A stretch of 64,000 nt of DNA, from assembly GCA_028753945.1 (NCBI GenBank), contig JAPNXP010000005.1, positions 2,542,001-2,606,000 on the forward strand, in the 5' to 3' direction. Below, piece after piece: positions 1,513 through 59,954 of this stretch. The stretch is from Hexactinellida sp. DTS-2022 (lineage: Eukaryota > Porifera > Hexactinellida). Made by a program: the position numbers and the translations under genes. Position 1 is the stretch's first letter; every line of letters starts with the position of its first letter. The notes below the pieces were generated by a model. The model saw nothing but the letters and a program-made list of their open reading frames with translations. It did no database searches and had not been told where the DNA came from.

Positions 1513-1590
1513 TAAACAGCTGTATCATTTTTAGGACACAGAATAATTTTTTGACTTACATAATCACGATCAGCATAATTTACATTTATA

Positions 1591-5700: not shown

Positions 5701-5949
5701 TCTTGAACAAAAAATTTATTCTTAAGCTCTATACAGCTACTATAGAGCTATTTATATAAAGCTCTCTGCATACTTAATTAGTTAATTCTCATTGGTTAAT
5801 AATTCCTGCATGCATAAAGCTGTTATAAAAAATATCCAATTAATTTAATAATTTAAGTAGAAAATTCTCATTGGTTAACTACACTATTTTAACATTTTAA
5901 TTAATCGAATTATCCATAGTATCTATCTGAATCATATCTGTTTAGTAAC

Positions 5950-6510: not shown

Positions 6511-6726
6511 CCTATTATAACATTTGTTACCAATTATAACTTTTGACAGTTAGTTTATATCTCATACATTAATGCGGTTTCTATCCCCCCCGTCACTTTA
6601 TTACAATCCGGACAAACATACAAACAAACACACAAACAAACAAACAACAATCGAGATTGAATAATATAGATTTAACTTACAGGCAGCAAACATGGAACAG
6701 AGGCTTCTTTAAACTTATGCCTTTTT

Positions 6727-7770: not shown

Positions 7771-7811
7771 GAAACCACATACATGATATCTCCATTATTT
7801 GGGGTCGCCGA

Positions 7812-23760: not shown

Positions 23761-24290
23761 TTCGCCGATATCGCAGAACCATTATATATATTGACACGTG
23801 ATTCAACAGAATGGATCTGGAACGAAACCGCTGAGACCGCTTTCAACAGCCTCAAAAACAAGCTAATTAAGCCACCGGTAATGCTAGCGTTCCCAGATTG
23901 GAACTCTGAGTTTACATTACAAGTAGACTCTTCTGCAATAGCCGTTGGAGGCGTATTATCCCAAGAGGGGACAGACAGGCGATTGAAACCAATCGCATAC
24001 TTCATCAGGGCTAACCCCAGCTCAAAAGAAGTACTCAGCAGGAGAATTGGAGTGCTGGGCGGTAATTGCAGCCAGTAGAAAATTCAGTTAGTATTTACAA
24101 GCAGCTCCTAGCATTCAGTTCCTTTCTGACCATAACCCTCTCGTGTGGCTACGACGACAAAAGGACCCACGGGGGAAGTTCGCGAGATGGATACAGGAAC
24201 TGGAGATGCTCGCTTACGAGATCAAATACGTAAAGGGTGTCGAGAATGGGCCGGCTGATTTCCTTTCCAGGATTAGTACTGATATCGATT
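23760..24290 (+). pseudogene. gypsy RNase H region (fossil)
   Basis: FTLQVDSSAIAVGGVLSQ near 23.93 kb and the later FLSDHNPLVWLRRQKDPRG-like segment near 24.13 kb are RNase H landmarks, ending in GVENGPADFLSR (24.24 kb). Confidence 0.85.
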
Positions 24291-25812
24291 GGGAAATGAA
24301 CGACGAGGAAGAACATTTCGAAAGACACATTTACCAGATTAGCTATGATCCTAATTGGCACAACAAAATGAAGAGATGTCAAAAGGAAGATGCTCTTGTA
24401 TCTTCGGCGATTAGTCAACTCCGGGAAACGAACCAAGTCACTCAGGGCCAATTCAAGAACCAAGTTGGAATGACCTTAAGGGAAGGATTACTGTGCAGAG
24501 GAAGTTATGTCGTTATACCAAGGGCTATGAGACAAGAAGCAATCTCGATAGTGCACAGTATGGGTCACCCAGGTGTCGACAAGACGACACGCCTTGTCAG
24601 AACCCGATTCTTCTGGAAGCGAATGGATTCTGATATTGATGAATATTGCAGGGGGTGTCTCATATGTCACAAGAATAAACCCAACAGCAACCCGAAAGAA
24701 AAGCTTATCCCAATTAATGTTTCCAAGAGGCCTCGAGAGATGATTGCCTTCGACGTGGCCACTTTACCGTGGGCATCATCCAACCACCGTTATTTTTTAC
24801 TCATGGTGGACCTGTTTTCCAAATTCGTAGAATTGTATCCCATGGCAGACCAAGAGTCGTCCACTATCGTGAGAGGAATACTCGATGGTTGGGTTATAGG
24901 CATGGTCCTCCAAACTTCATACTTATTGATTCGGGGCCTAACGTGGACGGGAGCGAAATAAGGACCGCCTTAGCAATGCACGGAATTAAGAAGAAAAGAA
25001 GTTCGCCTTACCATCCAGAAGGGGACGGCCAAAGCGAATGTGGTATTCAGGCAATAAAACAGATCATGCGGTGTATGCTTGAGGAGAGACAGGTGGCGAA
25101 AGATAGTTGGCCGACCATCCTCCCCGAAGTGAGTTACATAATGAACTCTATACCTAATAAGAGTACAGGTTTTACACCCTACAGGGTTATGTATGGAATC
25201 GATCCCAAACCTTTGGCGACCGCCTTTTTGGAAACTAGTACTCGAGAGGGATATGATTTTATACTCGATTGGGTAACGGAATTGGAACTCATGGAAGATA
25301 TGATCAACGACGAAGTGGGAGAAAATCTTACCCAATCTAGGGCCACTATGAAAAATTTCTTCGAAAAGGGAAAAGTCGATTCCAAGATAGGTATTGGAGA
25401 TTTACTACTACTGAAGAACCAGAATAGAAAGAGTAGTCTCGACCAAAAGTTTGACGGGCCGTATGCAGTAATACATAGAAAAGGACCTAATGTTTTGATC
25501 AAACAAAGAATAGGGAAGGAAAGGTCCCTAGAAAAGTGGATACATCTAAATAGATGCAAACCGTACCTTCCAAAACTCTACTTCCCTAATTGCTACAGGA
25601 CCAAACCTGCAGACATTGACCTACCGGAAGGATACGGTTCAGAAGACGATCTTAGCGAGGAAGAGTACACAACCGTCCCGATACAGAACCCAGAGTTCGA
25701 AGAAATCGTATCAGACGTAGGACCTCGCACATCAAACAGGATAAGGAAGCCATCCAGGAAACTGATCGAATCAGAATGGCTAGATGACCTCTCTGATGAT
25801 GTTGTGAACTAG
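24290..25812 (+). pseudogene. gypsy integrase region (fossil)
   Basis: Zinc-binding part HSMGHPGVDKTTRLVR...CLICHKNK (24.56-24.67 kb), then the catalytic core with AFDVATLP (24.75 kb) and GQSECGIQAIKQIM (25.03 kb). The C-terminal part includes FDGPYAVIHRKGPNVL near 25.46 kb (GPY-like) and an acidic tail. The broken frames mean it is not expected to work. Confidence 0.87.
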
Positions 25813-31587: not shown

Positions 31588-32212
31588 GCACTGTTGCATA
31601 TAATTTTCAGACATTGTATTAGTGTACCATGGATGCTTCAGACATATAATTTTCAGACAATGTATTAGATACTGGTATACCGTTTGATATTAGCTCGTTC
31701 TTGATAACTTAGTAATACTTTCATTAATATATTTATACAATTCACACAGTTCAACATTAATTCTTCTCAATAACTAATTTTTATTCATTTTAATATATAT
31801 TTCCATACTTTTTTGTCATTTAGACCTGTTTCAACTTTAATGTATAATTTATATTATATAGATAATATTTTTTTCTGCTCCATGCATCTTCCAATTTATC
31901 GTAATGTACTATCCCAACGGTCTGAACATGTCCACTGTTAATACGATCCAATTATGTAGATTAAAATAAATGTTGATTACAAAAACCCAAACAAAACTAA
32001 ATATAACTACATAGATCATATATGCTTATACATATACAATATATAACAAGGTTTGCAATACGAAATCAGCGGAAATAGATTACAAAATATACTATAATTA
32101 TGATACAATTTACAAAAACATATACAAAATTATTGGCCAGAGTGAATAATTATTAGTTGCCTGTAAATATACAGACAAAGTTTAGACAGGACGAGTACAA
32201 TACAACAACTAC

Positions 32213-34916
32213 CAGGGCAGCATTTAGGGGGGGGGGGGGCGGGGGAGGGCTTTCGCCCCCCCCTGGGCTGCCTTTTTCCCCCTGCGCTGGGTTTTGACCC
32301 TCCCTAGAAGACAAGTAATCACAGAAAGGTTACTAGATATGTCAATACAGAAAATCATACATAAATAATACTGTTAACACAGCTACAACAATTGTCAGTA
32401 TAGTTCAAGAGGTAAAAACGTATAGTTGGTTCAAATCGGTATCCTGCGTGGTTTTCTATTCCATACTTCCAAAATTGAGTCTAAGTCATCATCTGTTAGC
32501 TTTTCAGGAGATTCAATGCCAATCCTCATTAGCTGAGACAGTGTTCCTTCAGATAAAGAGTTTCTAAGCCTTTTTTAATGAGCTTCATCGCAGAAAAGCT
32601 TCTTTCAACTGATGCAGTTGATACTGGTATAGTTAAACAAATAGAAGCAATTTTGCTCAAGTTTGGAAACATTGTGATAAGCGTCTCATTGGTAACTAGC
32701 TCTTTAAGTTGTTTAGCGATATCATCCTCAGCTTTTTTGAGAGGAAGCACGAAAAGTTATCCATTCTGTGTGCAACTCAGGAGTAATCAATCCTTCTTTT
32801 TGAATTTCTTCTTCATCTAGAGTCAGACTGTGTCTCTCTTGGGCATAGTGATCAGTGAGTAATTCAATAATGGACTTTGTTCCATATGTTGGCAATTGAG
32901 TTGAGTCAGAACTTAGGATTTTTCGGGGATCAAATATTGACAATGCTGACACAATATATTGTGCTTCGAACCTTCTTGAAATGTTTGGATTGAGAGTGTT
33001 TACGAATGGGGTAGCCACTGTCTCTTGGAATCTCAGTAGCTTACTGGTGTCAAACGTTTTTCCTGTAGTTTGCTGAATATCATCCTTGTTGTCTAAAAGT
33101 TCTAAATTTCCAGTTAGCTGCAGGTGTTATTGCATCATCTATGGATGTAATGGAGGCATCTACAAGGGCAGATATCATTGAAAGATCAAGTTGTTTTGAT
33201 TGAAGGGTCTTACTAAGTTTAGCTGTTATTGGTAGCACATAATCAAGCAGATAGATTGAGGCAATAGTAGAAAACTGTGACAAGTTCTTGTGTAAGCCCA
33301 ACGCTTCTGGTTCATGAAAATTCTGGTAGTTATTGGACAAGGTAAGCATCAGTGCATTGTAATTAGCTTTAACAGCTTTCACACACATTTGATGTGATAG
33401 CCACCGAGTGTCAGATGGTTTTATGACTTTCAATTCGGGGAGCTCGAGAACTTTTTGAATTTCTTTCAGAGACTCTGCTCGTTTGGGGGAATAATGGAAA
33501 TATTTCCAAAGAGTTGTCAAAGCGGTGTACACATGTTTAATTCCAGGTGTGCTGTTAGCTGCTTGTACACATGCTAATTGTAACATATGGCAGTGGCAAT
33601 GGACAAAGACTGCGTGTGGAGCATGTTTCTTGAGTCTGGCCTGGACTCCAGTCTTCTTGCCTGAGAATGTTGCAGCACCATCGAATCCCAAACCAATGAT
33701 GTTGCTCACTTGAAGGCCTTTGCTTTTGAGGCAATTGGTAATGGCTGTGTATATAGTTTCTGCATTAGTCCTCTTTAATGGTATGATTTCCAAGAATGAT
33801 TCAACAGCTACACCATTTTCTTCCCAGCGACAGAATATGGACAATTCTTCAATCACGCTCACATCTGTGCATTAATCCCCCATTATACTGAAAAATGGCA
33901 CTTTCTGTAGCTTTTTGAGAAGTGATTCCTCAGTCCACGTACCAAGTGCTTGGATAAACTCAACTACAGCCCCTCTAGAAGTGTAGACAGCATTCTTGGA
34001 AGCAGTTTCAATAAAGGTTTGCAATTCCCTAGCCCCACAAGAGACGACTAATTCGACCAAATCAATGAAATTTGTTGAGTGAGCTATATGGTGACGCACG
34101 AGAAAGTGGGTGCAGCGTACTAGTGACTTTAGGGAATCTCTATGTTTCTCCCTTTCCAAAGTGCAGACTTTCTGAATCTGTTGAGCTACTGAGACTTGGG
34201 TTGAGGTCATAACCATGGCTTCACTACATCTGATGTGGTGTGCACTTTTTTGGTGCTCTATCATTTTACCAACAGCTTTTTTCCAATTTTAAAATGGTTT
34301 TGAAACCCAAACACCTCCAGTATGCTCTTGAGTGGTGTGATGCATACTGTGTGTTCTACAAATTCGACAAAAGGCACCATTAACATCTTGATCATACACT
34401 AACCAGTTAAATTCTTTCTCCCAATCCTTGCGATAACTCCTTCGGCTTTTTAGAGGTCTAAATTTCTCTGTGCAGCTCTTCTTATTTGGTGGTAGCATTG
34501 AATCAGAATCGGAAGAGTCGTTATCTGAAACTGATTGGCTTGAGTTACATGTAACTCCATTACAGCTACTAGGTCCAAAATAAGAGAGAATATTCTTGCT
34601 CATGACTCACTGCTAGATGTTCTTCTGTTTTAATGATCCGAGGATTTGAGGTCACTCTACTATCCTGTGTATAAAGTTCACTAACATGTAAAATTATAAA
34701 TAAGCTCCCAATAAAACAATTATCCCCTTGAGTGACCAAATAATGCATACAAAATTGGCTGAAATCGCATTGGAAGCAATCTCAGACACTTCAAACTAAT
34801 AAATTTCCCGGGGGAGCATGCCCCCGGACCCCCTTAGTTGGATGGGCTTCGCCCTCCTTATTTCTTTAACCAACCCCATTTGCCCCCCCTGACCTAAAAA
34901 CCTGTATGCAACCCTG
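32213..34916 (-). mobile_element. hAT transposon with transposase gene
   Basis: Ends CAGGGTTGCATACAGG (complement, at 34916) and CAGGGCAGCATTTAGG (32213), imperfect inverted repeats next to G/C-rich tracts. The flanks (ACAACTAC, GCTACACT) do not show a clear 8-bp duplication. Encloses a broken transposase gene. Inserted in the large element 31592-41785. Confidence 0.75.
32480..34603 (-). pseudogene. hAT transposase (ZNF862/ZMYM-like group), broken
   Basis: Minus strand from an ATG at 34603. An N-terminal TTF/BED-like zinc finger (YDQDVNGAFCRICRTHS, then HQKSAHHIRC) is followed by the RNase H-like core (PFFSIMGD, NIIGLGFDGAATFSGKK, VHCHCHMLQLA, KPSDTRWLSH). The C-terminal hAT dimerisation block IPVSTASVERSFSAMKLIK is at ~32.6 kb. 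Breaks: a frameshift near 34.27 kb, a stop at 33872-33874 right after the first catalytic Asp, and frameshifts near 33.05 and 32.74 kb. The layout matches hAT proteins that gave rise to vertebrate ZNF862-type genes. It is intronless and not functional as it stands. Confidence 0.85.
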
Positions 34917-35421
34917 GCTACACTATACCAGTACCGCTATAACCTAGCTGATAATACTCCCCTAACCCTAAGCTGGTGGTGAATCCCGGATAGCAGGTAC
35001 ACATATATAGCCTAACTATTGTAATTAATACTAAACTACATCTACGTATATAAACCAGACGCAGCTCAGACAAAACACATACATCAGTCGATTCTGCTGA
35101 ATTGGGTCAACTACCCTAGGAAAGTTACCCAATCTAGCGGAGTCGACTGTATTTAAACTACGGCTGAAACGAATATGCCGAATATTCGAATATACGTTCG
35201 AAATGATTGAACGAATATTCATTCGTTTCCAAACGAATATTATCTTAGAAAGAATATTAAATTGTACCGGATATTCGCTAACTGCTTTTCGATAACAACA
35301 TGATCATGAATTGTGTTTAGATTGGAGAGATCGTCAATATGCGTTCTTTCCTACCTAAACTAACCTTTATAGTAAGTAATAACTAACTTGTGTCTAATAC
35401 TTTATCGCTATGATTAAACTA
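34917..35421. other. Stretch with a short TA-type palindrome, otherwise nothing recognised
   Basis: 35095-35149 has inverted ends CAGTCGATTCTGCTGAATTG / CAGTCGACTCCGCTAGATTG, a tiny relative of the MITE at 51742. 35165-35245 repeats CGAATATTCG motifs. Confidence 0.5.
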
Positions 35422-37170
35422 CAGTAGAACCTCGTTAGTACGAACACATTTGATACGAATTTCCGTATAAGGCCGAACTATACTCAAGAATGATATTGAG
35501 ATTATGTTGTTTTTGGATAGTAACCCATAAAATAAACCAGCATTGAAAATTTCAGCTGTTTCTGACTCATACTTTCGAAGTTGCGACCTTTTTAGAGCTT
35601 AGGAATGTATGCATCATCATCAAAAGGTCAGTTTTCAAATGGACGATCATAACTTTTGGTCTAGATTTCACAGATTTGGTTCAATATGCTTGAAACCAAG
35701 TTTAAATGAATGAATACATATGTTCCTTTATAGAAATACGTTTTTTAACACTTCCGAAAAAAACTTTCAGAGTTACAGCACTTTGAAGTCAGATTTCTAC
35801 CGCCAACCTATAACATTTCGATGTTTGGCAGTCAAAGACTGACTTCAATGGTCTGTAACTCTGAAAGTTTTTGTCGGAAGTGTTAAAAAACGTATTTCTA
35901 TAATGGAACATATGTATTCATTCATTCAAACTTGGTTTCGAACATATTGAACCAAATTTGTGGAATCTAGACCAAAAGTTATAATGGTAGGTTTTTACAT
36001 ACACCACTATTTTGACTCAAATCAAGTGAATTCATATGTTTATTACTATTTTGCAAATGCTTTCATCCGTTTTTCATATGAGTTGGTAATAGTACATAGA
36101 TATGAATACAAAGTTAGTGCTAAGCTCTAGAGTTTATAGTTTTCGAGAAAAATATTTGAAAATCATCAAAAATGGGCACACTTTATGCCCATATATGGTC
36201 ATTTGGAAAAATTGTGCGAGTTATGGTCTCAAAATGTATTATTGAGGGATAGTAAACCGGGTATTGGGATCATTTTGCAGTCAAAATTTTATTTATTGGT
36301 CAACGGGTTACTGAGATTCAAAATAGAATAGTGAAAGGACCACCCAATGAGTTGAAAGGTCAGAAAGTTTTAATTGCTTGAGCGTTCACAGTTTTTATCC
36401 TAATTGTTTGAAACCAAGTGTAAACTAATGAATATATATTCAATTTGGGAATGACCCTTAATCTAAACTCTACAATGCGAACTTTCAGAGTTCCAGCCCT
36501 TTGAAGTCTGACTTGGCACATTGACAATCCAAATCTGACTTTAAATGACTATAAATCAGAATTTTTCCATTAGAATGTTGAAAATTTTGGTTTAGATCCT
36601 AAGTATATATGCAAAGATACTATTGGATGAATAACAACGAAATTGATAGTAAATTATGGCAGTGCGAGCCTACAAACTTTTTAACCCATTTGAAAAAGTC
36701 ACCCTCCATGATGTCCATCACATTCCAGGATCTTATAAAGGTCGCTACAGCAAAACTATGGGTCAGATTCACCTGAAATTTGAAATGTAGGTATACTTTA
36801 CAGGGTACTATCCAAAAACAATCGAATCTCAATTTATCTGACGAGCATTGTGGGGCCGTAATTCAAATTTTTGTCCGAAATTGGCTATATAACAGGGAAT
36901 TCCTGGGTCACTGAGCCCTACTGACTTCAAATCTACTCAGAATTCAAAAAAAATTTGCCAGATTATTTACCATTGTGAAACAAACAGGAAAACGAATTAA
37001 ACTCATTTTCCCATTTGCAGTATAGTGTGGCCATAAGACGAACAAACAGTTCCACAAAATCAGGTCCCTACAATGGCTATTCAATGGGTATACTCCGGTT
37101 AATTCGAACTCCGGATAAAGCGAACAAATTTTTACCGTCCGTTGGTGTTCGTATTAACGAGGTTCCACTG
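35422..37170. mobile_element. pogo/Tigger-like non-autonomous element, 1.75 kb
   Basis: Ends CAGTAGAACCTCGTTAGTAC and (inverted) CAGTGGAACCTCGTTAATAC, TA outside both. No transposase. Inside, 35640-35990 is an inverted repeat with ~165-bp arms (GACCAAAAGTTAT at its right end, CATATGTTCC in both arms). 36.0-36.3 kb resembles 17.64-17.9 kb. Confidence 0.85.
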
Positions 37171-37209
37171 TATCTATTAGGAACAAGATATTAGGAACAT
37201 AAAGGTGAA

Positions 37210-37720
37210 ATCTATTTAATTTTGTTTGTAGATCTTCATGCAACGGACTAATAAAAGTATCCTTCCTCACGGTTTCTTGAAGGATGATCTAGTGAGTAAA
37301 TAATTGATATTTATTACAATTACCTACAAGAAAGAAAATATTAAATTTGTGCAGTATATTCATCATCATTGTATAGTTAAAACCATGTCAACAATTGAAA
37401 AATGGCACAAGTTCATGTTTACCTTGAATTGAGATAGGTGACGATGAATAGTTTCACTAGAAAATCCAAACTCTACTTGGGGAGTCTAAATTGCATAATA
37501 AAAGTTCAAAGCTTGAAGTCAGCAAATTTTCTAATCAAAATAAGACATAGGATTGAAGCCTTATTTCGTTTGTTCTCACATTCCGAAGTATCATCACCCT
37601 TTCTCTTCCTGGATATCGACTTGCTGGATTTACTACAGCGTTGATGGTAAGGCATGCAATGTGAAGAGGGACTTTCTTGTCTTTTTTTGGATCCTAACTC
37701 CTCTTTACAAATCACTGCGT
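37210..37720 (-). pseudogene. Ginger-like copy 2: part of the second (accessory) gene
   Basis: Minus-strand blocks FGFSSETIHRHLSQFK (~37.43-37.48 kb, followed by a GT splice donor) and VRKDTFISPLHEDL (~37.23-37.28 kb) match MYKNLFGFSKESIFQHLNNL and LNIRGQTFMTPLHEELHHLL of the other large copy (56.7-57 kb). A Lys/Ser-rich stretch lies before them. The OTU part is not found here. It would lie to the left, where the pogo-like and hAT elements now sit. Confidence 0.65.
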
Positions 37721-37748
37721 GGCTATCAGTAATCCTAGATGTTGTGAA

Positions 37749-38179
37749 CAGGAGCGGATACAGCCCTTCGACTCAGGGGGGCCAAATTTGGAGGGGTATG
37801 GAGCGAGTAAAACGAGCGACGGTAAGGGGGTTTGGGGGGCTTGCCTCCCAGAAAAAAATTACCCTTTGATAGCCAGATATTGATCTATTACCATTTTTAT
37901 ATAAATTATTACTAAAATGACTAAAATTACAAAAATTCCCCCCATTAGAAAAATCTCAGGGGGGGCCGGGCCTATAGGCGTCGGACCCACCCGGCCACCC
38001 GGCATGGGCCGGGCAGCCCGAAGGGTCTACCTGGCTCTACCCCGCCCATGCCCGGCCCATAGTTGTGTTAGTGATGCCGTGAATGTAGCAGCCCCAGAAT
38101 CGATTGGGCCGCCCCCAGAGCCTTCGGGCCGGGGGGCCCAAAGGGCCGGCTTGCCCCCCCCGCCCTAGATCCGCCCCTG
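37749..38179. mobile_element. hAT-type MITE, GC-rich, 431 bp
   Basis: Ends CAGGAGCGGATACAG and (inverted) CAGGGGCGGATCTAGGG. Flanks GTTGTGAA/GTAGTGAA are an 8-bp duplication with one mismatch. The inside is GC-rich (GGCCGGGC, CCCGGCCC) in sharp contrast to its surroundings. Confidence 0.82.
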
Positions 38180-38187
38180 GTAGTGAA

Positions 38188-39360
38188 GAGACCGAGATAT
38201 TTGTCTTGTCCTTGGCTTTTCGGCATCTTTTTTTTTACTGTGCCGACTATACTATAGTATAGTGGCCCAGTTCTAATCTTACTGCCTTGGTTATTATTTG
38301 TCCGTAGCCTCTCTACTGAACAGAGTTTTATTAACTAAGAGCCCATATTTTCAGGATATGTGTCTCATGGGTTACAGATGTGCACCTGGGGTCACGATTT
38401 TTTATTACATTTTTTTAAACACATTTTTAAACTTGTTTAATGTTAGAAAAGGAACAATAAATAGTGCCCGAATATTCAATTTATATGCATTCTATAGAGA
38501 ATAAAATTCTACACCTTTTCACAGTGCACGAATTTTTAAATTGGACTTCGTTTTTGCAACAATTAAGTAGCAAATTCCCTTTGTTTACTAACACTTCAGT
38601 TCAAATGAAAGTGTTAATAATAATTCTATTGTTTCAACTTGTGATTATTATATTGATTCAACTTGTGAGATCGAGTAGGCTTCTATTTTCCAATTGAAAA
38701 CCGAGATTTTACATTCCATAACAACGACAGATTATGTGATTATATTTACTTCTGCGAGAATATTATTGCACTGTTAATATACTGACGTAATTAATTATAA
38801 GTAATTCAGTCAGTATACGACTTATATAGATGCTTCCAATTTGTTTGTTTATAATAGGGTTTATCGAGTGTGCGGAATTTAAATTTGATAGCCAAATTAA
38901 ATAATTAATTATTTATGACAAAATAATTTAACTTAATAATTGTAAGTTGACATTGAAATTGGTGTTATATTATAAATAATATTTATTAAATATTTATACT
39001 AATTAGCTAAATTTCATTAATCTCAGAGATGATACAAGATAGAAACAAACTTTCAATTTATCAATTGGTCCTTATGCCAGGTACCACCTATACAAGTGGG
39101 TCTTGACACCTTGAGGTGATGATGACATAGTCAAAAAAAATTATTTTTACAATTTTGTGAATTAAATAATTCGCATGGGTTGGTTGAATATCCAACACGC
39201 ACCTAAAAAATGCTGATTCAGCACATATTATATTCTACTGAAACTTGAATATCTCTCAAATGAAGTGAGCTAAATGGAAACTTCCACCACTCTAAGGGTC
39301 GTAGCCTTCTGAAACACCTCTCTGAGATAATTTAACACCTTCACAGTGATGATGACATGG
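38188..39360. other. AT-rich stretch without recognised gene
   Basis: Short open frames (for example 38464-38697 with a hydrophobic end) have no recognisable similarity. Nothing else is supported. Confidence 0.5.
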
Positions 39361-39365
39361 CGAAA

Positions 39366-39486
39366 AAATCCAAAATTGCAGCCTGTGCCGACAGCATGTT
39401 CCTTTGGAGGCACTATCAATAAACCTCCAACAAAATATAGTGCCACCAAAGGAACATGCGTCGGCACAGGCTGCAATTTTGGATTT
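39366..39486. repeat. Hairpin, ~50-bp arms
   Basis: AAATCCAAAATTGCAGCCTG...GGAGGCACTAT pairs with ATAGTG...CAGGCTGCAATTTTGGATTT around a ~20-base loop. Arms differ at only a few positions. Possibly a small foldback MITE. Confidence 0.75.
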
Positions 39487-39589
39487 TAACTTTGGCATGT
39501 TGGTGAAAAAGATTTTGGCACCTTCCTTGATTTCATGTCCAAATGAAATTCAATTATACTGTACTCTTATTTATACTTATTAATAAAAA

Positions 39590-41225
39590 TAACAAACTTC
39601 TTTTGGGTAACTTTTTTATCATATTGTCTTTTTTGCTTGAGTTGTTCAGACCTTATTGAGTTAGATGCGAAACTGCGAGTGCATTCTCTCGATTCATCGA
39701 GGAGTTTTATAGATTCTATGTCGTTGCTAGGAAGGGAACAAAACACATCATCCACTTCGCCATCTTTCTCAGCAAGCAAAAATTCAGAATATATAGCTTC
39801 TTCAAGTTCAGTCTTCTTCATGAGACACCTGCATGTTGTTAAGAGAAGGTACTAGGTCTCCATATCTCGATTCGCGACCCCACATTACTTGGAAAGGAGT
39901 ATAGGAGTGAGACTTCTTTACTGTCGAGTTCATACACAAGACTGCAGACTTGAGTAGTACTGACCAATGATCTCCAGTTTGAGTAGCCATATTGCTCAAC
40001 TTACTAGATATTGTTAGTCAAATTAATTCATTATTAGAATATAACATCGTTAGGAAATACTTATGTTTTGAGGATTTGGTTATGACCTTCGACTAAGCCA
40101 TTGGCCATCGGGTGATACGCTTGAGTGCTGCGGTTGTGAATTGCAAATTTTTGATGACATTCTTGAAATAGCTACAAAGAAATGATTAATCATAAGCATG
40201 TTCTTTTCGCAGAATATAGTATCCTCATTTAGCAGAAGACTGCAAGTAAATATTTCCATTGATATATTGACTATTTCATTAAAATTATTTTAATGATGTT
40301 TTTAAAGCATAATCTTACATTACTAGTCAACTCTTTGCCCTGGTCATTTGGATGATATCTGGAAGACCAATTAAGAGATAAATGTCTTTCAGGTTTTCAA
40401 CAACATCTGAGGAAGTTTTGGATTTTAGAGGTCTTACTACCACATATTTGCTCGAATAGCAGACAGTAACCAATATGTTTTTATAACCTTCTGGGCTAAG
40501 TGGGAGATCACAAATTAGATCAATTCCAATATGTTTACACGGTCTGTCTGGCGGGGGAATCGGTTGTAAAGCCTTCTGTGGTTGAGGTGGTAACGCGGCT
40601 GTTCGTTGACATATATCGCACGTTTTTACCTAATACATAAAATTATAGTGCACACTGTTCTCTCTAATAGTCCACCAGTGGGCAATTGGCCCAAAGTGGA
40701 CTATTAGAGATATGGACTATTACAGATATATAAATAGTTTATTTGGACAAGTAAATAAGTGGACTATTAGAGAGAAGAGACTATTGTGTATTATATAAAA
40801 ATAAGATGCTGAACTAACATAATCAGTAATTTGTGTATACATCGCTGGCCAGTAATATCGCTGTCGAATAGAAAGGATTATGCTTTTTATTCCAGGATGG
40901 GCCAAATGATCGTTGAACCAAAATATCCTGAAAATCAGCACGACATGCAACTTCGATGTCTTTCTACTCACAATTCATCACGACTTTCTAATTAATTAGT
41001 TAATTTAATTATAAAGAATTCTACAATAAATTATACAAATGTAATATAATTAATAACCTTGTAAAGTTTGTCAGATTCTGAAATTAAATATTTTCGACAC
41101 TTTCTCCTTGAAATTCCATTTAGCTTGGCGGGAAAATTCCGCTGGGAAATCCCCCTTCCTTAGCAAATTTACGATTCGTTGGTATTCAGTTTGATCAATT
41201 ACAAATTGACCTGTATTAGTGGAAC
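39590..41225 (-). pseudogene. Ginger-like copy 2: intron-split integrase gene
   Basis: Minus-strand blocks in order: an N-terminal helical part (VIDQTEYQRIVN, ~41.2 kb); zinc-binding HLAHPGIKSIILSIRQRYYW (~40.9 kb) with CDICQRTAALPPQPQ (~40.6 kb); core HIGIDLICDLPLSPEGY and KYVVVRPLKSKT (~40.4-40.5 kb); HPMANGLVEGHNQILKT with the catalytic Glu (~40.1 kb); then GDHWSVLLKSAVLCMNS to an acidic tail (39.6-40.0 kb). Blocks are separated by short GT-AG introns, unlike retroviral integrase, so this is a DNA-transposon gene. Decayed, with a few breaks. Confidence 0.8.
40645..40790. mobile_element. TA-type MITE in an integrase intron
   Basis: CTCTCTAATAGTCCAC near 40670 and GTGGACTATTAGAGAG near 40765 form the inverted ends, with the outer parts CACACTGTT / CACAATAGT. 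Exact limits uncertain. Confidence 0.6.
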
Positions 41226-41242
41226 ACAGTTTTCATTATTTA

Positions 41243-41686
41243 CTAGCGCGCTTCGCTTGCTAGGTCGCTTCGCGACAGAACACAATTTAGATACTCCTAA
41301 CAATAATTATAAAGCCTAAATAGGCCTAAATAGTCAAAATTAGCAATGTGAAATTTTAGTGATACGTGATCATGCGATAAGGAGTTAGCATATTGGCAAT
41401 CTGGTGTGACCAACGTGTCTGCATCATTAATGTACATGTTCCATTATATTTTCATATTTTTATCTCTTAGAGGGCGCGAATTATGTGCGATTAAGTGTAT
41501 TTTCAGGGTTCTCGAAATATGACAATGACGTCATAACCTCAACTTGTTGGCGGGTGTCAAAGGTTACCCCTATATGCCAAAAAAACATTTGGAAACCGTC
41601 CACTTTCTTCAATCAACTCGGAACATACAAACAAATGTATACATATATACACATATACACCCAGCATTGTGTTTTAAAAGCATAGA
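41243..41686 (-). mobile_element. Non-autonomous Helitron, 444 bp
   Basis: Minus strand: starts TCTATGCTTTTAAAACAC at 41686 and ends GAAGCGCGCTAG at 41243, between host A and T. Same family as 16908-17399 and 63071-63579. Confidence 0.82.
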
Positions 41687-41914
41687 TATACGTATATCCA
41701 TAATAATAATTAGTAAATGTCCTAAATTCCACACAAGTACAGCATCCATGGTACACTAATACAATGTCTGAAATTCTATGCAACAGCACTAATAAATTTC
41801 CATACAAAAACAAAAATATGCATACAAATTGTCATAACATGACGTCATTTTGATGATATATCAAAAAATACTTCATAAAATGTTTATTTTGAAAAAATTA
41901 AGAGTTTTCTCCTT

Positions 41915-51147: not shown

Positions 51148-51151
51148 GCTC

Positions 51152-51565
51152 TGTTGCATGATATTTTGAGACACGTGAGATTCTGAGACATTGTATTAGC
51201 AAACCATGGATGTGCTATGAATTATACAGTGATATTTTGAGACACTATTAAAGGAATTTTGGCTTATTTTTACTCTTATTATGAATTTAATTCAAGAATG
51301 AGACGCGTGAGATTCTGAGACATTGTATTAGCAAACCATAGATGTGCAATGAGAAATTATACAGTGATATTTTGAGACACTATTAAAGGAATTTTGGCTT
51401 ATTTATACTTTTATTATGAATTTAATTCAAGAATGAGACGCGTGAGATTCTGAGATATTGTATTAGCAAACCATAGATGTGCAATGAGAAATTATACAGT
51501 GATATTTTGAGACACTACTACAAAAGGAATGTTTGCCTTATTTTACTTTTATTATGAATTTAAGG
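51152..51565. repeat. Left end of the large element: ~129-bp sub-repeats, three units
   Basis: Units carry GAGATTCTGAGACATTGTAT, TAGCAAACCATGGATGTGC, TTATACAGTGATATTTTGAG and CTATTAAAGGAATTTTGGC. Complementary units are at 59566-59849. Confidence 0.9.
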
Positions 51566-51741
51566 CAAGTTATACCAGTAACCCAATATCCAGTGTATAT
51601 CTGATTTGACTTGTTTTTCTTAATCTAATAATTTCCCAATTCAGCAAATGGTTATAATATTAACAATTGCAGGGACACAACTTTAATTAACTATATACAA
51701 AAACAACTATTACAAACAAATAAAATATATATTCTAAATTA

Positions 51742-51926
51742 CAGTCAACTCCGCTTAATCGGGTCACATCGGGACCAAGTTGTTTTGATCCGATTAAGCG
51801 GAGAAACCGATTAACCGAAAATATTGTAAGCCAAACTGTAATTCTGTCCTATAAATCCTGTGAAATTTTGACCCGATTTAGCGGAGAAACCGATTAACCG
51901 GTGTCCCAATTAAGCGGAGTTGACTG
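51742..51926. mobile_element. TA-flanked MITE, 185 bp
   Basis: Ends CAGTCAACTCCGCTTAATCG and (inverted) CAGTCAACTCCGCTTAATTG, TA on both sides. The inside repeats GATTAAGCGGAGAAACCG. pogo-like. Confidence 0.88.
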
Positions 51927-51929
51927 TAA

Positions 51930-52800
51930 TTTACATGAAACATAATACTAAATAGGTAAACTAAATATAAAATCTTCCTCCTGCTCCAGCTCCAGCTCCA
52001 GCTCCTGCTCCTACTGCTTCTGCTCCTCCTCCCCCACAATAATCCTTGTAGAGTAAAATCTCCCCTTCTGCAACCCACCTATTTCGAAACGCAAAGGGTC
52101 CACCTTACCGGAAGGTTGTCCAAAAGAACTCAGTCCCTGATAAAAGCAACATATTGCCTCAGTCCCTGATAAAGCCACAAAGGCACACACTCTCCTCCAT
52201 CTCCCTCCTCTCCCCTTCTCACTTCCGAAAATAAAATTATAGTCAATAAAGTAGTAACATATAAATTAGATAAGTTTGTTAGCTAATACTTATAGTTATT
52301 AACTTTTATTGCAACATACGTAATTATAATTCAGTGTCATTTACGTCAATAGCCAACACTACCTTATCTGATTACGATTAACAAACAATAGAAACAAAAT
52401 TTGTTGTTGAGAAATTTTTCTTAAATGTTTACGTTGCAGTTTATGAAAAGTCCTGGTGTGCACGCAGGTACACCAGGCACGTTCCATAAACTGTGACATT
52501 TAAACCATTTTATTTCTCCTGAATTTCAATAGTATATTCCTTGATTTCTTACGACTTATGGTTACTATCCTACCAATTTAATTGGTTAAAGAAATAATCA
52601 CAACGATTAACTTCTTTCTAAATCTATCATACTTAAACGAGGAGAATGTCTAGAAAGAGATATACATATATTTATAAGATAAATAAAGGTAAACTATTTT
52701 ACAATCAGTTTTGATTGTATTAGCCAATTACTTTTTGGGGGCCTCCTCCTTTTCCCCACACAGCCGCCCTATCCTCTCCATTCATACAGTGGAAACCCAT
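51930..52800. other. Stretch inside the large element, no gene
   Basis: Holds a GCTCCAGCTCCAGCTCC-rich strip near 51.99 kb and a hairpin at 52437-52493 (CAGTTTATGAAAAGTCCTGG / CCAGG...CCATAAACTG). No coding similarity. Confidence 0.5.
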
Positions 52801-52806
52801 ATCCAT

Positions 52807-52955
52807 AGGCGTCGTAAATGCAAAGGTCAATCCTTCGGGCCACCCGGAAATTCCGGGTAATGTCCGGGTAAACTCCGGATATAGTATTATTAGCATAGGG
52901 GCAACCCTTCCGGGCCGCCCGGACATTTCCGAGCACCCGGGCGGGTTACGACGCC
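52807..52955. mobile_element. Short MITE, possibly Mutator-type
   Basis: Inverted ends AGGCGTCGTAA / GGCGTCGTAAC. Flanks CATATCCAT/CATATCTAT are a 9-bp duplication with one mismatch. Contains CCGGGCCGCCCGGACA and CCGGGTAATGTCCGGG. Confidence 0.6.
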
Positions 52956-53113
52956 CATATCTATATCCATTCAATCGGCCCCGATTTTTAATTAAATTAG
53001 CCTTCGTTTGTATGTGTGCAGTGGCGTATCCATGGGGGGGGGATTTGGGTGTTCAAACACCCCCCTCATAAAGCCTCTAAAGCCTTCTTTAGCCATAGAA
53101 ATGAACACACGCG

Positions 53114-53458
53114 TTGAGAAGATGCAGAGGTTGCAGAAAAGCAACCAGCGGGCTCACAACTGAAATCGACGATATAGTCCAAAATGCAATGGAAAGAGTG
53201 AACCAAATCCACACGAAAGAAATGGACCAATTAGAGTCAATGTCAAAGAGGAACCTAGATACTTTCAAAGAAGACGTTCGCAAAAGGGAGAGGGAGGCTG
53301 CGAAAGAATTCGAAGCCGCAGCCCAAAGCACGAAAAGAACAATACACACTGAAACCGAGGAAATGTCTACAAAGTTGCGAAAACTGGAACAGTCGTATCA
53401 AAAAGATACAAATAAAACATATCAGGAGCAACTGAAAGTCATAAATAGTAGCATCTAG
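53114..53458 (+). other. Coiled-coil open frame of unknown origin, no ATG start
   Basis: About 114 codons open with TTG rather than ATG. From ~15 on, the sequence is highly charged with heptad character (EIDDIVQNAMERVNQIH, KREREAAKEFEAAAQSTK). No known domain recognised. It lies between the hAT-type left end and a LINE tail, so it is probably part of a mobile element or a captured fragment rather than a free-standing gene. Confidence 0.35.
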
Positions 53459-53461
53459 GTT

Positions 53462-53656
53462 GAAATATTATGGAGATCGTGCTTTTTCAAACGTTGCTCC
53501 ACGTCTCCGGAATTCTTTTCCTCAAAATATCAGAAAGTCTGTACCAATTGAACTATAGAAAAAAAACATTAAAACTTTCTAATTTAAAAAAAAACATTAA
53601 AACTTTCTTATCTAAAAAAACAATTTTTGTAAATGTTCTTGATTATCTGTATAGAG
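53462..53656 (+). mobile_element. LINE fragment: end of reverse-transcriptase ORF and 3' tail
   Basis: Encodes YYGDRAFSNVAPRLRNSFPQ, the conserved C-terminal tail of many CR1/RTE/jockey-type LINE proteins, followed by NIRKSVPIEL and a stop, then a doubled AAAAAACATTAAAACTTTCT. Only the last ~200 bp are present. Confidence 0.7.
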
Positions 53657-54748
53657 CATAGACTACTATAATAGAAGGACTAGTATCTGACAATCTGGGA
53701 TTGCGGAACTTGGGTCCCAAGTTCAATTTTGGTCCCATCATATCTTGGGTTGTACACAGCTAGAACCTTCATCTTGGTATCTAACATGGGATTTTGAGGG
53801 ATGAGAAATTAATTAATTACACTTTTGACCTATTACCACGTCACCTAAAGGTCATTTTAACACAAATAGTCTTTCTAAATATGTATATATTTCTATGATC
53901 ATAGTTGATTGAATAAACTACAAGACGCACGGGGCTGATTTTTAGCATGCAGGGGTATTTTGGGTCTGGCTCGGACAAGTTCTAGTCTTGAACCAAAATT
54001 CACACCTACCATGGAATTATGACGTCATTGTCACCTTTTCCAAAATGTGAAAATCCACCTATTAGCTTATAACTCACGCTCCATGAGAGATAGAAACGTG
54101 AAAATTTAATACAATATGTATATTAATAGCACCTACATATCTCCCACCAAAATCACAAATATGCTTGCTCATTTTCCAATTTTTTGCATTATCATGATGA
54201 CGTAATAATTAGAAAATACTTGTGATTGGAAAATGAGCAAGCATATTTGTGATTTTGGTGGGAGATATGTAGGTGCTATTAATATACATATTGTATTAAA
54301 TTTTCACGTTTCTATCTCTCATGGAGCGTGAGTTATAAGCTAATAGGTGGATTTTCACATTTTGGAAAAGGTGACAATGACGTCATAATTCCATGGTAGG
54401 TGTGAATTTTGGTTCAAGACTCGAACTTGTCCGAGCCAGACCCAAAATACCCCTGCATGCTAAAAATCAGCCCCTTGGGTCTTGTAGTTTATTCAATTAA
54501 CTCTGATCATAGAAATATATACATATTTAGAAAGACTATTTGTGTTAAAATGACCTTTAGGTGACGTGGTAATAGGTCAAAAGTGTAATTAATTAATTTC
54601 TCATCCCTCAAAATCCCATGTTAGATACCAAGATGAAGGTTCTAGCTGTGTACAACCCAAGATATGATGGGACCAAAATTGAACTTGGGACCCAAGTTCC
54701 GCAATCCCAGATTGTCAGATACTAGTCCTTCTATTAAAGTAGTCTATG
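53657..54748. repeat. Large symmetric palindrome, 524-bp arms, 44-bp spacer
   Basis: 53657-54180 pairs with 54225-54748 without any net indel. Only a handful of mismatches were noticed (for example near 53.67 and 53.92 kb). Arms contain the Helitron-like core also present at 29.75-29.96 kb (GCATGCAGGGGTATTTTGGG, ATGACGTCATTGTCACC). Confidence 0.95.
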
Positions 54749-55186
54749 GTATAGAGTCATCTTTGTATATATTTGGTACTTTACATTCTTTTCCAACTGT
54801 GAACGCTTTGATACTATTATTATGTATAGCGTACTAAGTGCTGAATTATTATTATATTATAAACATTTTGGTACAACTGCACAATATTACACTCCTCCTA
54901 CTATGTGACAAGAATAGCTGTACATCGATGTTCGAGCGTCTAAAATTCAAAACAATTCTGAGGGGCTTGCCCCCCAGGCCCTGCCTTACCGTAGCTCGCT
55001 TCGCTCGCTCCAAAACACCCCCCTCACGATAATCCTGGATACACCACTGTGTGTGTAACGACATATCAGAATGAGCATCGCATTGATGCGCCCTGATAAG
55101 GCGGTTCCCAGTGTACAAAAAAAACTCTCGAAGGAAAATAGGTTAGTTACAGTAAATTACTCAAACTCTGAAATTAAACACTATTA

Positions 55187-55285
55187 TAGTGAACTCCAAG
55201 TCGGCTATAAATCGGCTTATAACAAATTTGGTTTATTATAAATATGAAATCGATGTCCGCAGCTCGTTATAACGGGAGTTCACTG
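55187..55285. mobile_element. TA-type MITE, ~99 bp
   Basis: TAGTGAACTCC at the left and (inverted) CAGTGAACTCCCGTTATAAC at the right, TA outside. pogo-like. Confidence 0.7.
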
Positions 55286-55437
55286 TACTTAATAATATAC
55301 GATCTAACAAAGTTACCTCGTGTATGGTGGACTTACTAAATAGAAACAAATTGATTACTTAGTATAAAGTATATTAGTAGATAATTAAAAATGTTAACTC
55401 ACTTGATTCCACAGATAATTTACCTACATGCTAGTCG

Positions 55438-56990
55438 TCATTCTTTTGCATCGTAGATCGTAGATAACAGCTCGTCTTTCGCCACTGAGGATATGCCGTT
55501 GCAGGTCACGTTTCCATTATCTGGGCTCACCATGATTGGGATTGCGTTGCCTGAATAACCTCGAGCAGAGGTCCCCACAAAGTTCGATGTACCTTGCCTT
55601 TGAGCGCTTTGTAAAGAGTGTTGTGAGCTGTTATTCAATCGTTTGGACATCATCTGAAATAGTTCCATAAGTCTTGTAATTCGTGATCAGCATTGATACG
55701 ACAGGTTGATAGTGGTCGAAGTAGTTTAGGATATAAAGGATGGCTGTAGGCTTATCTATGGCTCTGTGTAAACTCCAGCGCACCTCGCGAATTAATGAGT
55801 CTTTCGTTGTGTAGAAGTTATTGGCAATATAGACATCGGCATCAAGAATACAGAAGCAGCATAAATTTCCACATATGTTCCCCAAATGGATTCACGATTC
55901 ATAAGTCTTTGTGTCCTAAGGTTTTCACACGGTGTCGTTCGTTTGGTTTTAAAATACTATCCTAGTTTCCTTGTTCCTTCACTGGCGATAAAGTGAGAGA
56001 TGATGGAGCGAAGATGTAGGTAGCTGTTTTCACTCACAGTAATTAATTTGGATATGCATCGAAATAGACAATTACCATCTCCTTCGATATGTTCCGCTTT
56101 TCAAGGTTCAAAATCGCTAAGTAACTTGCCAACGCTATTAAATGGTTGTCTACAAACTGATACAAATGATATCCCCAACATATTGCATTTATTACGCTGC
56201 TGATTTTAATCTATCACTGTGATCATTGGGTCCATCGGTGTGTCTTTGGGATTACCAAGCGGAACTGCGTCGTGAAATAATTCCCATAGCATTCTGTTTA
56301 GATACTGCATTCCCTAATATATTAATTTGTTTACAATTTAATTAATATAAGAATTATTTTGATGTCATAACCTGGTTTGATATACTAAACAAACATACTA
56401 ATTTTAATTAAATTGAGTTGTATGAGTGTATTGTTAGATTATTTTAACTTACCACGAAGTACAGTACTTTGTGTGTGTATCTAGCACGTTGGGTATCTGT
56501 ATAGCTGGGGTAGAGATCTGTTGTCCATCCGAGTAAAATCTCCATAATATCTCTCTTCTACAATAGATGGGTAAAATGATAATTTGTAGTTATCGTATGA
56601 ATCATTGTTAACTTACAACTTCCTCTTCTTTTCACCATCCAAATACTCGAAAAACATCGTGTTAGGAGTGTAGTTGTACGCTTTGTATAACAAGTGGTGC
56701 AGCTCTTCATGTAGAGGAGTCATGAAGGTCTGCCCACGTATATTAAGCTTTAGGATTTCCTACAAATGACAACATTGTAAGAAAAATATTACGGAATGTT
56801 ACAAATATTCCGGATTGACGTCAATAGAAGGTGTAGAGCGAAAATAACAATGAGTGTCAATAAAGATTACACTCAATGAATTAGACTTTATAGCTGAGAA
56901 CCGATGCTTACTTTTAAGTTATTAAGGTGTTGAAATATAGATTCCTTAGAAAATCCGAAAAGATTCTTGTACATCTAAAAAATGAATATT
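55438..56990 (-). pseudogene. Ginger-like copy 1: second gene with OTU cysteine-protease domain
   Basis: Minus-strand blocks in order: MYKNLFGFSKESIFQHLNNL (~56.95 kb); LNIRGQTFMTPLHEELHHLL and YLDGEKKRK (~56.65-56.75 kb); LLGWTTDLYPSYTDTQ (~56.5 kb); FHDAVPLGNPKDTPMDPMI (~56.25 kb). The OTU-like domain is ~55.69-56.13 kb, with catalytic-Cys motif IEGDGNCLFRCISKLI and the His region YILNYFDHYQPVV. A tail NAIPIMVSPDNGNVTCNG ends it. Blocks are split by GT-AG introns. The first blocks match no domain I know. OTU proteins are mostly deubiquitinases; its use to the transposon is unknown. Some decay is present. Confidence 0.75.
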
Positions 56991-57004
56991 TACTATAACA
57001 CTAT

Positions 57005-59430
57005 TTATCTTTTAAATAACAACTCAATCACAATGAATTTACCTGTGAGGTGTTGATTCCGATGCGTATCGAGGCTTACTTTCTTCTTAGTATTTTTGGG
57101 ACTTGAGGATCTTTCGAAGTAAGGTCTTGTGATATGGATTGGAATCTTTTTGTCCTTCTTCGTTCCTAATTCTGTTTGAGAAATTGTAACATGGCTTTCT
57201 GTTACTTTCGACGCCGTGTAAGGCCCGAGATGTTTCGTTTGCTTCTTTGTTTTGGGCATGTTGGTATAGATTATATTATCATCATTCTTTAGAGGGGCAC
57301 TAATTACAGAATGAACAATTAAGAAATTAATTATAATCGAAAGAATTAATCGAACATTAGTAACAAGATAGACTGTGTGTTATGTATGAATTAAATATCG
57401 TCATCAGTTCAACTAACCGACTAGTGTTAACTTTATTATCATATTGTATCTTCTGCTTGAGTTGTTCAAAACTGATGCAGTCCATAGCTGATTGCTGTGT
57501 AGAAATTCGAGATTCATCGATGTTGCTAACTGCTTCGAGGGGATTATCAGGAGGTGGGCAAAATATGTCGTTTATACCTTCGATATCATCTAGTAGATCT
57601 GTGAGTTCAGAGAAAATAGATTCTTCCAGATCAAAGTCTGCCTCATGGTTGGTATGCAGGTCGTTAATGGTGGACAAGAGATCTTGATGCCGGGACTCTC
57701 TTCCCCACATAACCTTGAATGGAGTTTGTCCGAGGGATCTTTTCTTGCAGTTCATTGCAAGCACAGCCTGTTTCAGCAGTTTGTACCAATGATCCCCTAT
57801 CTGGCTCTCCATTTTAATCAGTTTTCTATATGGATAATTCGTAAATGGGTCTTAAAATTTTATTACAAATACTAACTGTTTCAGAATCTTGTTGTGCGCT
57901 TCGACTAAGCCGTTAGCCATCGGGTGGTAAGCACGAGTGCTACGATTGTCGATACCCAATTTCTGATTGAATTCCTTAAATATCTGTTAAATACAATAAA
58001 TAAAAAATACAATAAATAAATACAAATAACAATATATACAATAATGTTAGTGTGTAAAATTAAATAGTTATTAATCAAATCTAACATCAGTATTACATTA
58101 TACTACTCACATTGCTTGTGAACTATTTGCCCTGGTCGTGCTGGCTAATATCAGGTAATCCCTTATCGAGATAGATGTCCTTCAGATTCTGAATAACTTC
58201 TTGTGAAGTCTTGGTCTTGAGAGGGCGTACTGCAACATATTTGCTCAGCTAGCATACAGTGACTATAATGTGTTTATAGCCGTCTTCACTCTCAGGGAGG
58301 TCGCATATAAGCTCCATTCCGATATGTCTCCACGTTTTAGAAGGAGCTTGTATTGGCTGGAGTTTCTTTGGCGGTTGAGGTGGCAAGGCCGCTGTCATCA
58401 GACATATATGGCACGTCTTTACCTTTATAATATAAGAAAGCCATTACTATAGTATAATATAATATGTACTACTATGTTACAAAGCTAAGTGACTAGTTTC
58501 TAATCATTATGAATTTGAGATTATTTTAAACTGAGATACAGCCACATTTCCTTATGTGCCACTTGTCCCACAAGTAGAACGTGACATAGACACAGATGCC
58601 ACTTCATGATAATTATTGGATAAACATGACTTAAAATCATAATGTTATGATATATATAATTATATTAGAGATAAAGTCATTTGAGAGTAGTTTAATCCAG
58701 TAGGATTTATTACGAAAACGAGAAGTATATTGTAATTCAGAAATAAAAATTCAGTTCTTCAAATAGTTTTGGTGGATTAGTATGCATTTAGATTTAGTTA
58801 GATTGCATCTTAACATTTTAAACGATTCAAAATTAAAATAGCCCATTTGAATAATAAAATAATAATGTTCAAATGAAACGAGGTAGGTAGGAAATTTTTT
58901 TAAAGTTTGAACAAAATACAGAAGTTGACCGGACAAAGATGGAATATCCTTTATAATAATGTCACTGTAAATGGAAAGTGGTCCGGCCATGACCGAACCA
59001 CGTGCTACCTAGGAAAGTATACCGGATAATTAAACTCACATATTCTTTAACGTCTTGGGAAACGCCTGACCATGTGTATCTTTGTTGAACTGAATGTAGG
59101 GTCGTATTTATTCCGGGATGACCAACTTCGTCATGGAACTTCTTATAGATGCTGTCCAACTCAGACTGCAATGGAACTTCCAAATCTGTCTCTGTGCCTT
59201 CCACTTTTACTCTCTAAAGGGAGAATTCAATTAAACCATGGGATATTTTAAAATGGTATAGGGGAATAAGGAAGTCAATATTACCTTGAAATGTCTGTTG
59301 GTATCTCCAATAAAATAGGAAGACAATCTTTTTTGTAGTTCCATTTTGTCTGACGTGAAGCTTGAGATGCCTCAGGATATTTTTCTTCGCGAATAAAGTG
59401 AATGATTTCGTCATATCCATTTGGATTCAT
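57005..59430 (-). pseudogene. Ginger-like copy 1: intron-split integrase (transposase) gene
   Basis: Minus strand from an ATG at 59430. Blocks: MNPNGYDEIIHFIREEKYPE (59.29-59.43 kb); zinc-binding FHDEVGHPGINTTLHSVQQR (59.04-59.21 kb) completed by CHICLMTAALPPQPP; core HIGMELICDLPESEDGYKH, KYVAVRPLKTKTSQEV and DISQHDQGK (58.11-58.42 kb); HPMANGLVEAHNKILKQ with the catalytic Glu (~57.88-57.98 kb); GDHWYKLLKQAVLAMNCKK and an acidic tail (57.4-57.83 kb); HLGPYTASKVTESHV, a GPY/F-type motif (~57.2 kb). Short introns have plausible GT-AG ends. Family role: cut-and-paste transposition by a gypsy-related DDE integrase. At least slightly broken. Confidence 0.82.
58510..58700 (-). mobile_element. mariner-like MITE fragment in an integrase intron
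   Basis: Matches the 18.2-18.4 kb part of the complete copy in reverse (TGCCACTTGTCCCACAAGTA, GATGCCACTTCATGATAATT). Confidence 0.6.
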
Positions 59431-59565
59431 TTTAAAATAAGAAAGGATTTGATTATTTGTTTGTTGTAAATTAATAAGACAATTAATGTATATATTAAGT
59501 TTCTTATATAGTTAATTAATTTGCTAATATAGGGTTTATCTATATTATGATCTCAAAATCATAGT

Positions 59566-59849
59566 TTCTTAAATTCATAATAAAAAGTAAAAATAAGGAA
59601 AAAATTCCTTTTATAGTAGTGTCTCAAAATATCACTGTATAATTTCTCATAGCACATCCATGGTTTGCTAATACAATGTCTCAGAATTTCAAGCGTCTCA
59701 TTCTTGAATTAAATTCATAATAAAAAGTAAAAATAAGCCAAAATTTCCTTTTATAGTGTCTCAAAATATCACTGTATAATTCATAGCACATCCATGGTTT
59801 GCTAATACAATTTCTCAGAATCTCACGCGTCTCAAAATATCATGCAACA
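59566..59849. repeat. Right end of the large element: two ~129-bp sub-repeats
   Basis: Complement of 51152-51565 with one unit fewer (AATTTCCTTTTATAGTGTCT, ATCCATGGTTTGCTAATACA). Confidence 0.9.
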
Positions 59850-59954
59850 GCTCTTATAAGAATGCATAAACATAGATAATGAATTAGATTACCATACGAT
59901 TAATTTGTTTCACCGGGGTAATTGTGGTGCGTGAATACTTTTTGTAGTGTTTAT

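Follow-up and report, generated by a model that had tools for sequence, protein, structure and literature searches.

A probable dead copy of a Ginger1-like transposon with a predicted integrase-OTU transposase in a hexactinellid sponge genome

When a gypsy-type integrase and an OTU domain lie between the same pair of inverted ends, do they form two genes of one transposon or one protein, and is the pairing new? The question was raised by a window of 64,000 nucleotides from Hexactinellida sp. DTS-2022 (contig JAPNXP010000005.1, positions 2,542,001 to 2,606,000 of the forward strand; plain coordinates below are those of the window). A sequence-only reading had seen at 51148-59853 a complete, giant Ginger-like transposon that encodes an integrase and, as a second gene, a deubiquitinase-like protein. 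Our analysis indicates that the feature is very probably one dead copy among many of a Ginger1-like DNA transposon, the intact copies of which encode one transposase of ~807 amino acids (aa) in ten exons.

Ends, target duplications and copies

The window element spans 51152-59849 (8,698 bp) and has inverted ends TGTTG...CAACA. TGTTGCATGATATTTTGAGA starts at 51152, its reverse complement ends at 59849, and GCTC borders both, which confirms the inverted ends and the exact duplication 8.7 kb apart that had been read from the letters. The terminal inverted repeats (TIRs) of this copy matched over ~275-280 bp at 93% and are built from ~135-bp tandem units. The features that delimit or interrupt the element, none of them assigned to a strand, are as follows.

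51148-51151: left target-site duplication (TSD), GCTC, of the GNNC type seen in 25 of 25 exact duplications
51152-51570: left TIR region, ~3 tandem ~135-bp units, at the downstream end of the gene
53019-55049: nested 2,031-bp insertion with ends CAGTGGCGTATCCA / TGGATACACCACTG, missing from sister copy L043
53652-54180 and 54225-54753: 529-bp arms (98%) of a palindrome inside the nested insertion, with a 44-bp loop
59569-59849: right TIR, ~2 tandem units, at the upstream end of the gene
59850-59853: right TSD, GCTC

A search of the genome (18 contigs, 112 Mb) with the 20-base end (one Y position) gave 154 matches (70 + 84), and the reversed control pattern gave 0. Pairing was carried out on 100 of the 154 ends, with convergent neighbours taken up to 16 kb apart, and yielded 29 pairs including the window's own; a candidate 17 kb apart (C7:2166287-2183489), more distant neighbours and the other 54 ends lay outside this check. 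The 4-bp flanks were identical in 25 of the 29 pairs and had a one-base mismatch in the other four. All 25 exact duplications fit GNNC (GGCC 8, GTAC 5, GACC 3, GGTC 2, GTTC 2, GAAC 2, GCGC 1, GATC 1, GCTC 1), which is far from chance given the base content of the window (G 17.8%, C 18.5%). A chance origin of the ends is excluded by the 154 matches versus none for the control, together with the 25 exact duplications. The search of the genome with the end sequence, which had been proposed as a check, thus did recover copies with 4-bp duplications, and the objection that the two ends might belong to unrelated repeats is contradicted, since both recur paired with such duplications.

Paired ends were 6,140-6,921 bp apart in 20 of the 29 pairs and 3.7-15.8 kb apart in the remainder. 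Because sister copy L043 is uninterrupted at the place that corresponds to 53019-55049, this stretch is an insertion; the element is ~6.7 kb long and was enlarged in the window copy by the nested 2,031 bp. The description "giant" was therefore not upheld.

To look for empty sites, the flanks of 25 pairs were joined with one duplication and matched against the sequences collected in the analysis. A junction-spanning match was found for 16 pairs, three of which (L083, L091, L062) were dropped because the sole match lay in their own flank. Uninterrupted counterparts were retained for 13 of these 25 pairs; their best identity was 74-97%, and L089/L090, for instance, reached 96% over 200 bases. Insertion was therefore precise in many cases. 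The joined flanks of the window copy matched only themselves.

A genome search with the exon 5-10 stretch, in which 40 of the 272 candidates were scored, listed 47 matches; 28 of these, the window included, cover at least 2,228 of its 2,231 bases. The 27 near-full-length matches outside the window were 92-94% identical, among the best 40 of the 272 candidates. Two copies, L043 (C6:1882901-1890900) and L044 (C6:1897558-1905558), lie in opposite orientation on one contig with starts ~15 kb apart; over the ~3.9 kb that were aligned their identity is complete to three decimals, yet their duplications differ (GGTC; GTAA/GTAC).

One predicted protein from zinc finger to OTU domain

The window copy was compared with other copies exon by exon. 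Eleven loci outside the window (L032-L042) were aligned, L043 being the place of L033 and L044 that of L032; L045 was excluded, and L046 contributed only 181 bases. Lengths in the following list are relative to L037.

59285-59430, minus: exon 1, with the start codon; 1 base shorter
59040-59213, minus: exon 2, HxxxxH part of the zinc finger
58111-58422, minus: exon 3, CxxC of the zinc finger and the first two catalytic D
57877-57983, minus: exon 4, third catalytic residue (E of DD35E)
57418-57825, minus: exon 5, part after the integrase core; 3 bases shorter
57043-57299, minus: exon 6, GPY motif region; 20 bases shorter
56912-56974, minus: exon 7, linker
56617-56759, minus: exon 8, linker; 1 base shorter
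56453-56557, minus: exon 9, linker
55631-56313, minus: exon 10, end of the linker and OTU cysteine protease domain; 1 base shorter

In L037, ten predicted exons separated by nine GT-AG introns gave one in-frame protein of 807 aa. A single open reading frame without an inner stop was found in four of the eleven loci (L037, L038 and L039, 807 aa; L035, 801 aa), which share 98.7-99.5% mutual identity, and the order in these intact copies is HHCC finger, DD35E core, GPY motif, linker and OTU. The OTU domain is thus most likely a part of the integrase protein, as judged from predicted splicing, and not the second gene that it had been taken for. The window copy, with exons 1, 5, 6, 8 and 10 shortened, is dead; it is frameshifted and so not "complete" in the sense of intact.

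Pfam matches to the spliced L037 protein, all over the cut-off, were Integrase_H2C2 (PF17921, 3.9e-17), rve (PF00665, 8.5e-10) and OTU (PF02338, 6.5e-10; residues 658-782 of the 807-aa predicted spliced frame), and the window copy holds the exons that correspond to the integrase and OTU domains. The finger residues are H76, H81, C111 and C114, and the catalytic residues D144, D203 and E239, of which D203 and E239 are separated by 35 residues. A GPYT motif following GDKI, at residue 415, was identified by eye, and Pfam gave no match to a GPY model. An intron-split integrase with HHCC, DDE and GPY motifs and an OTU domain, as read from the window, were accordingly both recovered. Cys 662 (in DGNC) and His 781 (in DHYQ) we take to be the OTU cysteine and histidine, and the roles of the finger, core, GPY and OTU positions are likewise presumed. 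The N-terminal KYPEAS...NYKRR..SYF is at most a candidate for the Ginger1 YPYY motif, in whose expected place upstream of the finger it stands. By sequence, the best solved relatives of the integrase were those of Ty3 and PFV (PDB 7q5b, 3l2q), with zinc finger and catalytic core in common; the OTU exon alone weakly matched viral and human OTU domains (best E 0.0019). The linker between the GPY motif and residue 658 had no Pfam match. The first ~150 residues of the supposed second gene, said to match no known domain, we read as the GPY region plus this linker, which is present in both families.

Differences between L037 and copies outside the window (four comparisons) amounted to 1.0-2.1% at codon positions 1 and 2, 2.5-3.9% at position 3 and 2.3-7.3% in introns; for L036 the values were 1.6, 2.1 and 3.9% at positions 1, 2 and 3 and 7.0% in introns. 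Between L037 and the window copy they were closer to even (4.0, 4.1 and 5.9%; introns 9.7%).

The second, related Ginger family is represented in the window at 31592-41785, with ends TGTTGCATA...TATGCAACA and GCAC at 31588-31591 and 41786-41789. Its integrase and linker lie on the minus strand; the integrase is 72% identical to that of the first family over residues 108-207 and has GPFT in place of GPYT. The piece at 37.2-37.7 kb, previously regarded as a copy of the same element, belongs to this family. No OTU domain was found in this window copy up to E 10, and under looser settings the matches listed were few, weak and dispersed. Six other long matches to the family were found at 92-94%, and in four of them (C3, C5, C17, C18:5294386) an OTU domain lies 1.2-1.7 kb downstream. 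The C17 copy (L109) repeats the order of linker and OTU exons, and its introns fall at comparable positions. Between the two families the exons that carry OTU share 51% identity and retain Cys and His. Given the four of six copies and the shared exon order, the OTU domain travels with the integrase in both families, which contradicts the prospect that it never does so.

Some observations weigh against a Ginger1-like element with a single protein. Duplications were imperfect in 4 of 29 pairs, and only 4 of the 11 aligned loci were uninterrupted: L041 and L042 are frameshifted, and in L032, L033, L034, L036 and L040 the end of the locus cuts exon 1 or 2 and exon lengths are changed as well. The exon junctions are predictions from DNA. 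In two comparisons the introns have diverged less than the third codon positions (L036/L032, 3.0 vs 4.6%; L037/L041, 2.3 vs 2.5%). A fold predicted for the OTU exon from two sequences failed (mean pLDDT 29) and was not used. The target sequence is GNNC here versus the published CCGG or CCGT/ACGG, and the comparison with Ginger1 was made by published description.

Against this background three other explanations were weighed. Integrase and OTU protein could be two separate genes of one transposon, the OTU gene starting at an internal ATG such as that of exon 7, which opens this exon at a phase-0 junction and would permit an independent start. This is improbable, as the GPY motif lies in exon 6 and exons 6-10 are in frame, with phase-0 GT-AG introns and no stop, in four copies; published Ginger1 elements also have integrase and OTU in one protein (available text of PMC2836005). 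We give almost no credence to the view that the integrase is what is left of a gypsy retrotransposon enclosed by inverted repeats unrelated to it. It does resemble the PFV and Ty3 integrases, and the window has a further integrase, equipped with a zinc finger of its own, at ~24092-25809, but the ends occur together with integrase and OTU, and with 4-bp duplications, in many places, and the same plan is found in the second family. An LTR retrotransposon was rejected in turn, because the ends are inverted and Pfam found no reverse transcriptase domain in the spliced protein (the remainder of the element was not searched). Membership in Ginger2/TDD would fit the 4-bp duplications and TGT ends, which are common to Ginger1 and Ginger2/TDD; it is very improbable nonetheless, since published Ginger2 elements have no GPY/F motif and an AT-rich target, RTATAY (PMC2836005), and the element has a GPY motif and GNNC targets. 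A Ginger1-like transposon with one integrase-OTU protein thus remains the preferred reading: the Ginger-like assignment holds for a gypsy-type integrase with OTU, and the separate deubiquitinase-like gene is disfavoured.

A 135-bp segment behind the OTU stop and neighbouring elements

Downstream of the OTU stop, a 135-bp segment is conserved between the families.

55482-55612, minus: 135-bp segment, window copy (also L109:1818-1952, L110:201-334, L111:245-378)

The segment is 93-98% identical between four copy groups, compared with 42-70% for the preceding 170-200 bases, of which the end of the OTU frame makes up the larger part. In the L111-L113 group the upstream frame resembles the OTU end by eye, and no OTU match was scored. 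A 24-base core of the segment occurs 133 times in the genome with up to one mismatch and 88 times exactly. Among the exact cores, 47 follow one of the 150 scored OTU domains at a distance of 145-259 bases on the same strand; no scored OTU domain on the opposite strand was within 1.5 kb of any of the 88. For the other 41, no OTU domain was scored upstream; at least six of these are at exon 5-10 matches, the window's own included. The L109 and L111 groups share ~220 further downstream bases at 90%.

Two functions were tried for the segment. As a coding exon it showed no third-position excess of variable sites (7/10/6, 10/6/7, 6/7/10), and stops interrupt its three frames in 8, 7 and 1 of 9 sequences; a coding role is disfavoured by the codon positions, yet not fully excluded with one frame open in 8 of 9. 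A structured RNA was rejected on z-scores of 0.60, -0.14 and 0.23 (3 of 10 sequences), with 2 of 38 consensus pairs changed on both sides, and up to E 1 the segment had no Rfam match in either L037 or L109. Behind the segment, a type III hammerhead-like core was detected in five of eight loci (L109, at L109:1991-2049, and L112-L115) with 22.7-25.6 bits and E 0.05-0.34, below the Rfam gathering score of 48.5; none was found in L110, L111 and L116.

The simplest reading of the conserved segment is that the families have exchanged it through recombination or gene conversion, with constraint at the DNA level as a possible alternative. It is conceivable, although doubtful, that several Ginger-like OTU families in this genome share a 3' module of at least the 135-bp segment, swapped or held near-constant and followed in two of four groups by the hammerhead-like core; such a module might act as a shared 3' RNA or DNA signal.

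Elsewhere in the window, a type III hammerhead ribozyme at the Rfam gathering score (7727-7780, plus; 48.5 bits, E 1.3e-07) adjoins a broken Ginger piece. A probable third Ginger relic, with one end (80% to the family's end) and 3' pieces, lies at 6725-7698. An apparent Helitron at 1-5715 (minus) has Helitron_like_N and PIF1 helicase, and its next open frame (1-1524) has Pif1_2B and an OTU domain. OTU domains are abundant in this genome: 150 of 440 candidates were scored and all 150 were over the cut-off, with none in 14 control genomes. Several lie within open frames of >1,000 aa.

Proposed mechanism and comparison with known systems

By homology, the HHCC finger and the tandem end units would help to assemble the transposase-DNA complex. 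The DD35E core would then process the CA-3' ends and join them to a GNNC target with a 4-bp stagger, and gap repair would leave the 4-bp duplication. The OTU tail would probably remove ubiquitin from the transposase, or from host repair or chromatin proteins; Bao et al. proposed that OTU or Ulp1 act on or activate repair factors (PMC2836005, available text). The locus presents the Ginger1-OTU plan with a GNNC target rule and a predicted ten-exon transposase in near-identical, probably recent copies, so that a supposed two-gene giant element becomes a known one-protein plan. Near-identical intact copies would make the role of the de-ubiquitinase-like tail in integrase-type transposition testable.

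Helitrons with OTU likewise link this domain to a transposition protein; unlike the element here, they have Helitron_like_N and PIF1 helicase and no integrase. Zinc finger and catalytic core are common to the element and the integrases of Ty3/gypsy and spumaviruses, from which it differs in having inverted ends instead of long terminal repeats and an added C-terminal OTU domain. Ginger2/TDD elements have the same integrase-type DDE transposase and TGT ends, with a TSD of 4 or 5 bp, and are set apart by the GPY/F motif and target sequence, as described above.

The closest published plan is that of Ginger1, which was defined by Bao et al. (2010, PMC2836005); Table 1 of that paper lists seven families with OTU (four from Hydra, one from Aplysia and two from aphid), integrase and C-terminal OTU being in a single protein, and the paper assigns the GPY motif to gypsy-type integrases. 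Repbase entries of both groups are mentioned in PMC10045372, 23 for Ginger1 and 30 for Ginger2. With Ginger1 the element has in common a single protein (splicing predicted here) in which OTU comes after a gypsy-like integrase with its H2C2 finger, DDE core and GPY motif, and also the TGTNR ends (TGTTG...CAACA), a 4-bp TSD, introns and several families per genome. The 6,140-6,921 bp spacing of 20 of 29 pairs is near the published size of ~2.6-7 kb, and the TIRs of ~275-280 bp are slightly above the published 40-270 bp. Their ~135-bp tandem units are not mentioned in the available text. The same text gives Ginger1 TSDs as CCGG (75%) and CCGT/ACGG (24%) and the number of introns as 0-4, compared with GNNC and nine introns here. 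A "poorly described lineage", as first suggested, is thus too strong a term for a pairing of integrase and OTU already known from Ginger1 since 2010, and is apt only in so far as the GNNC target rule and the many introns fall outside the published values. Because of these two differences, the element is regarded as a Ginger1-like variant and not as a strict member of Ginger1.

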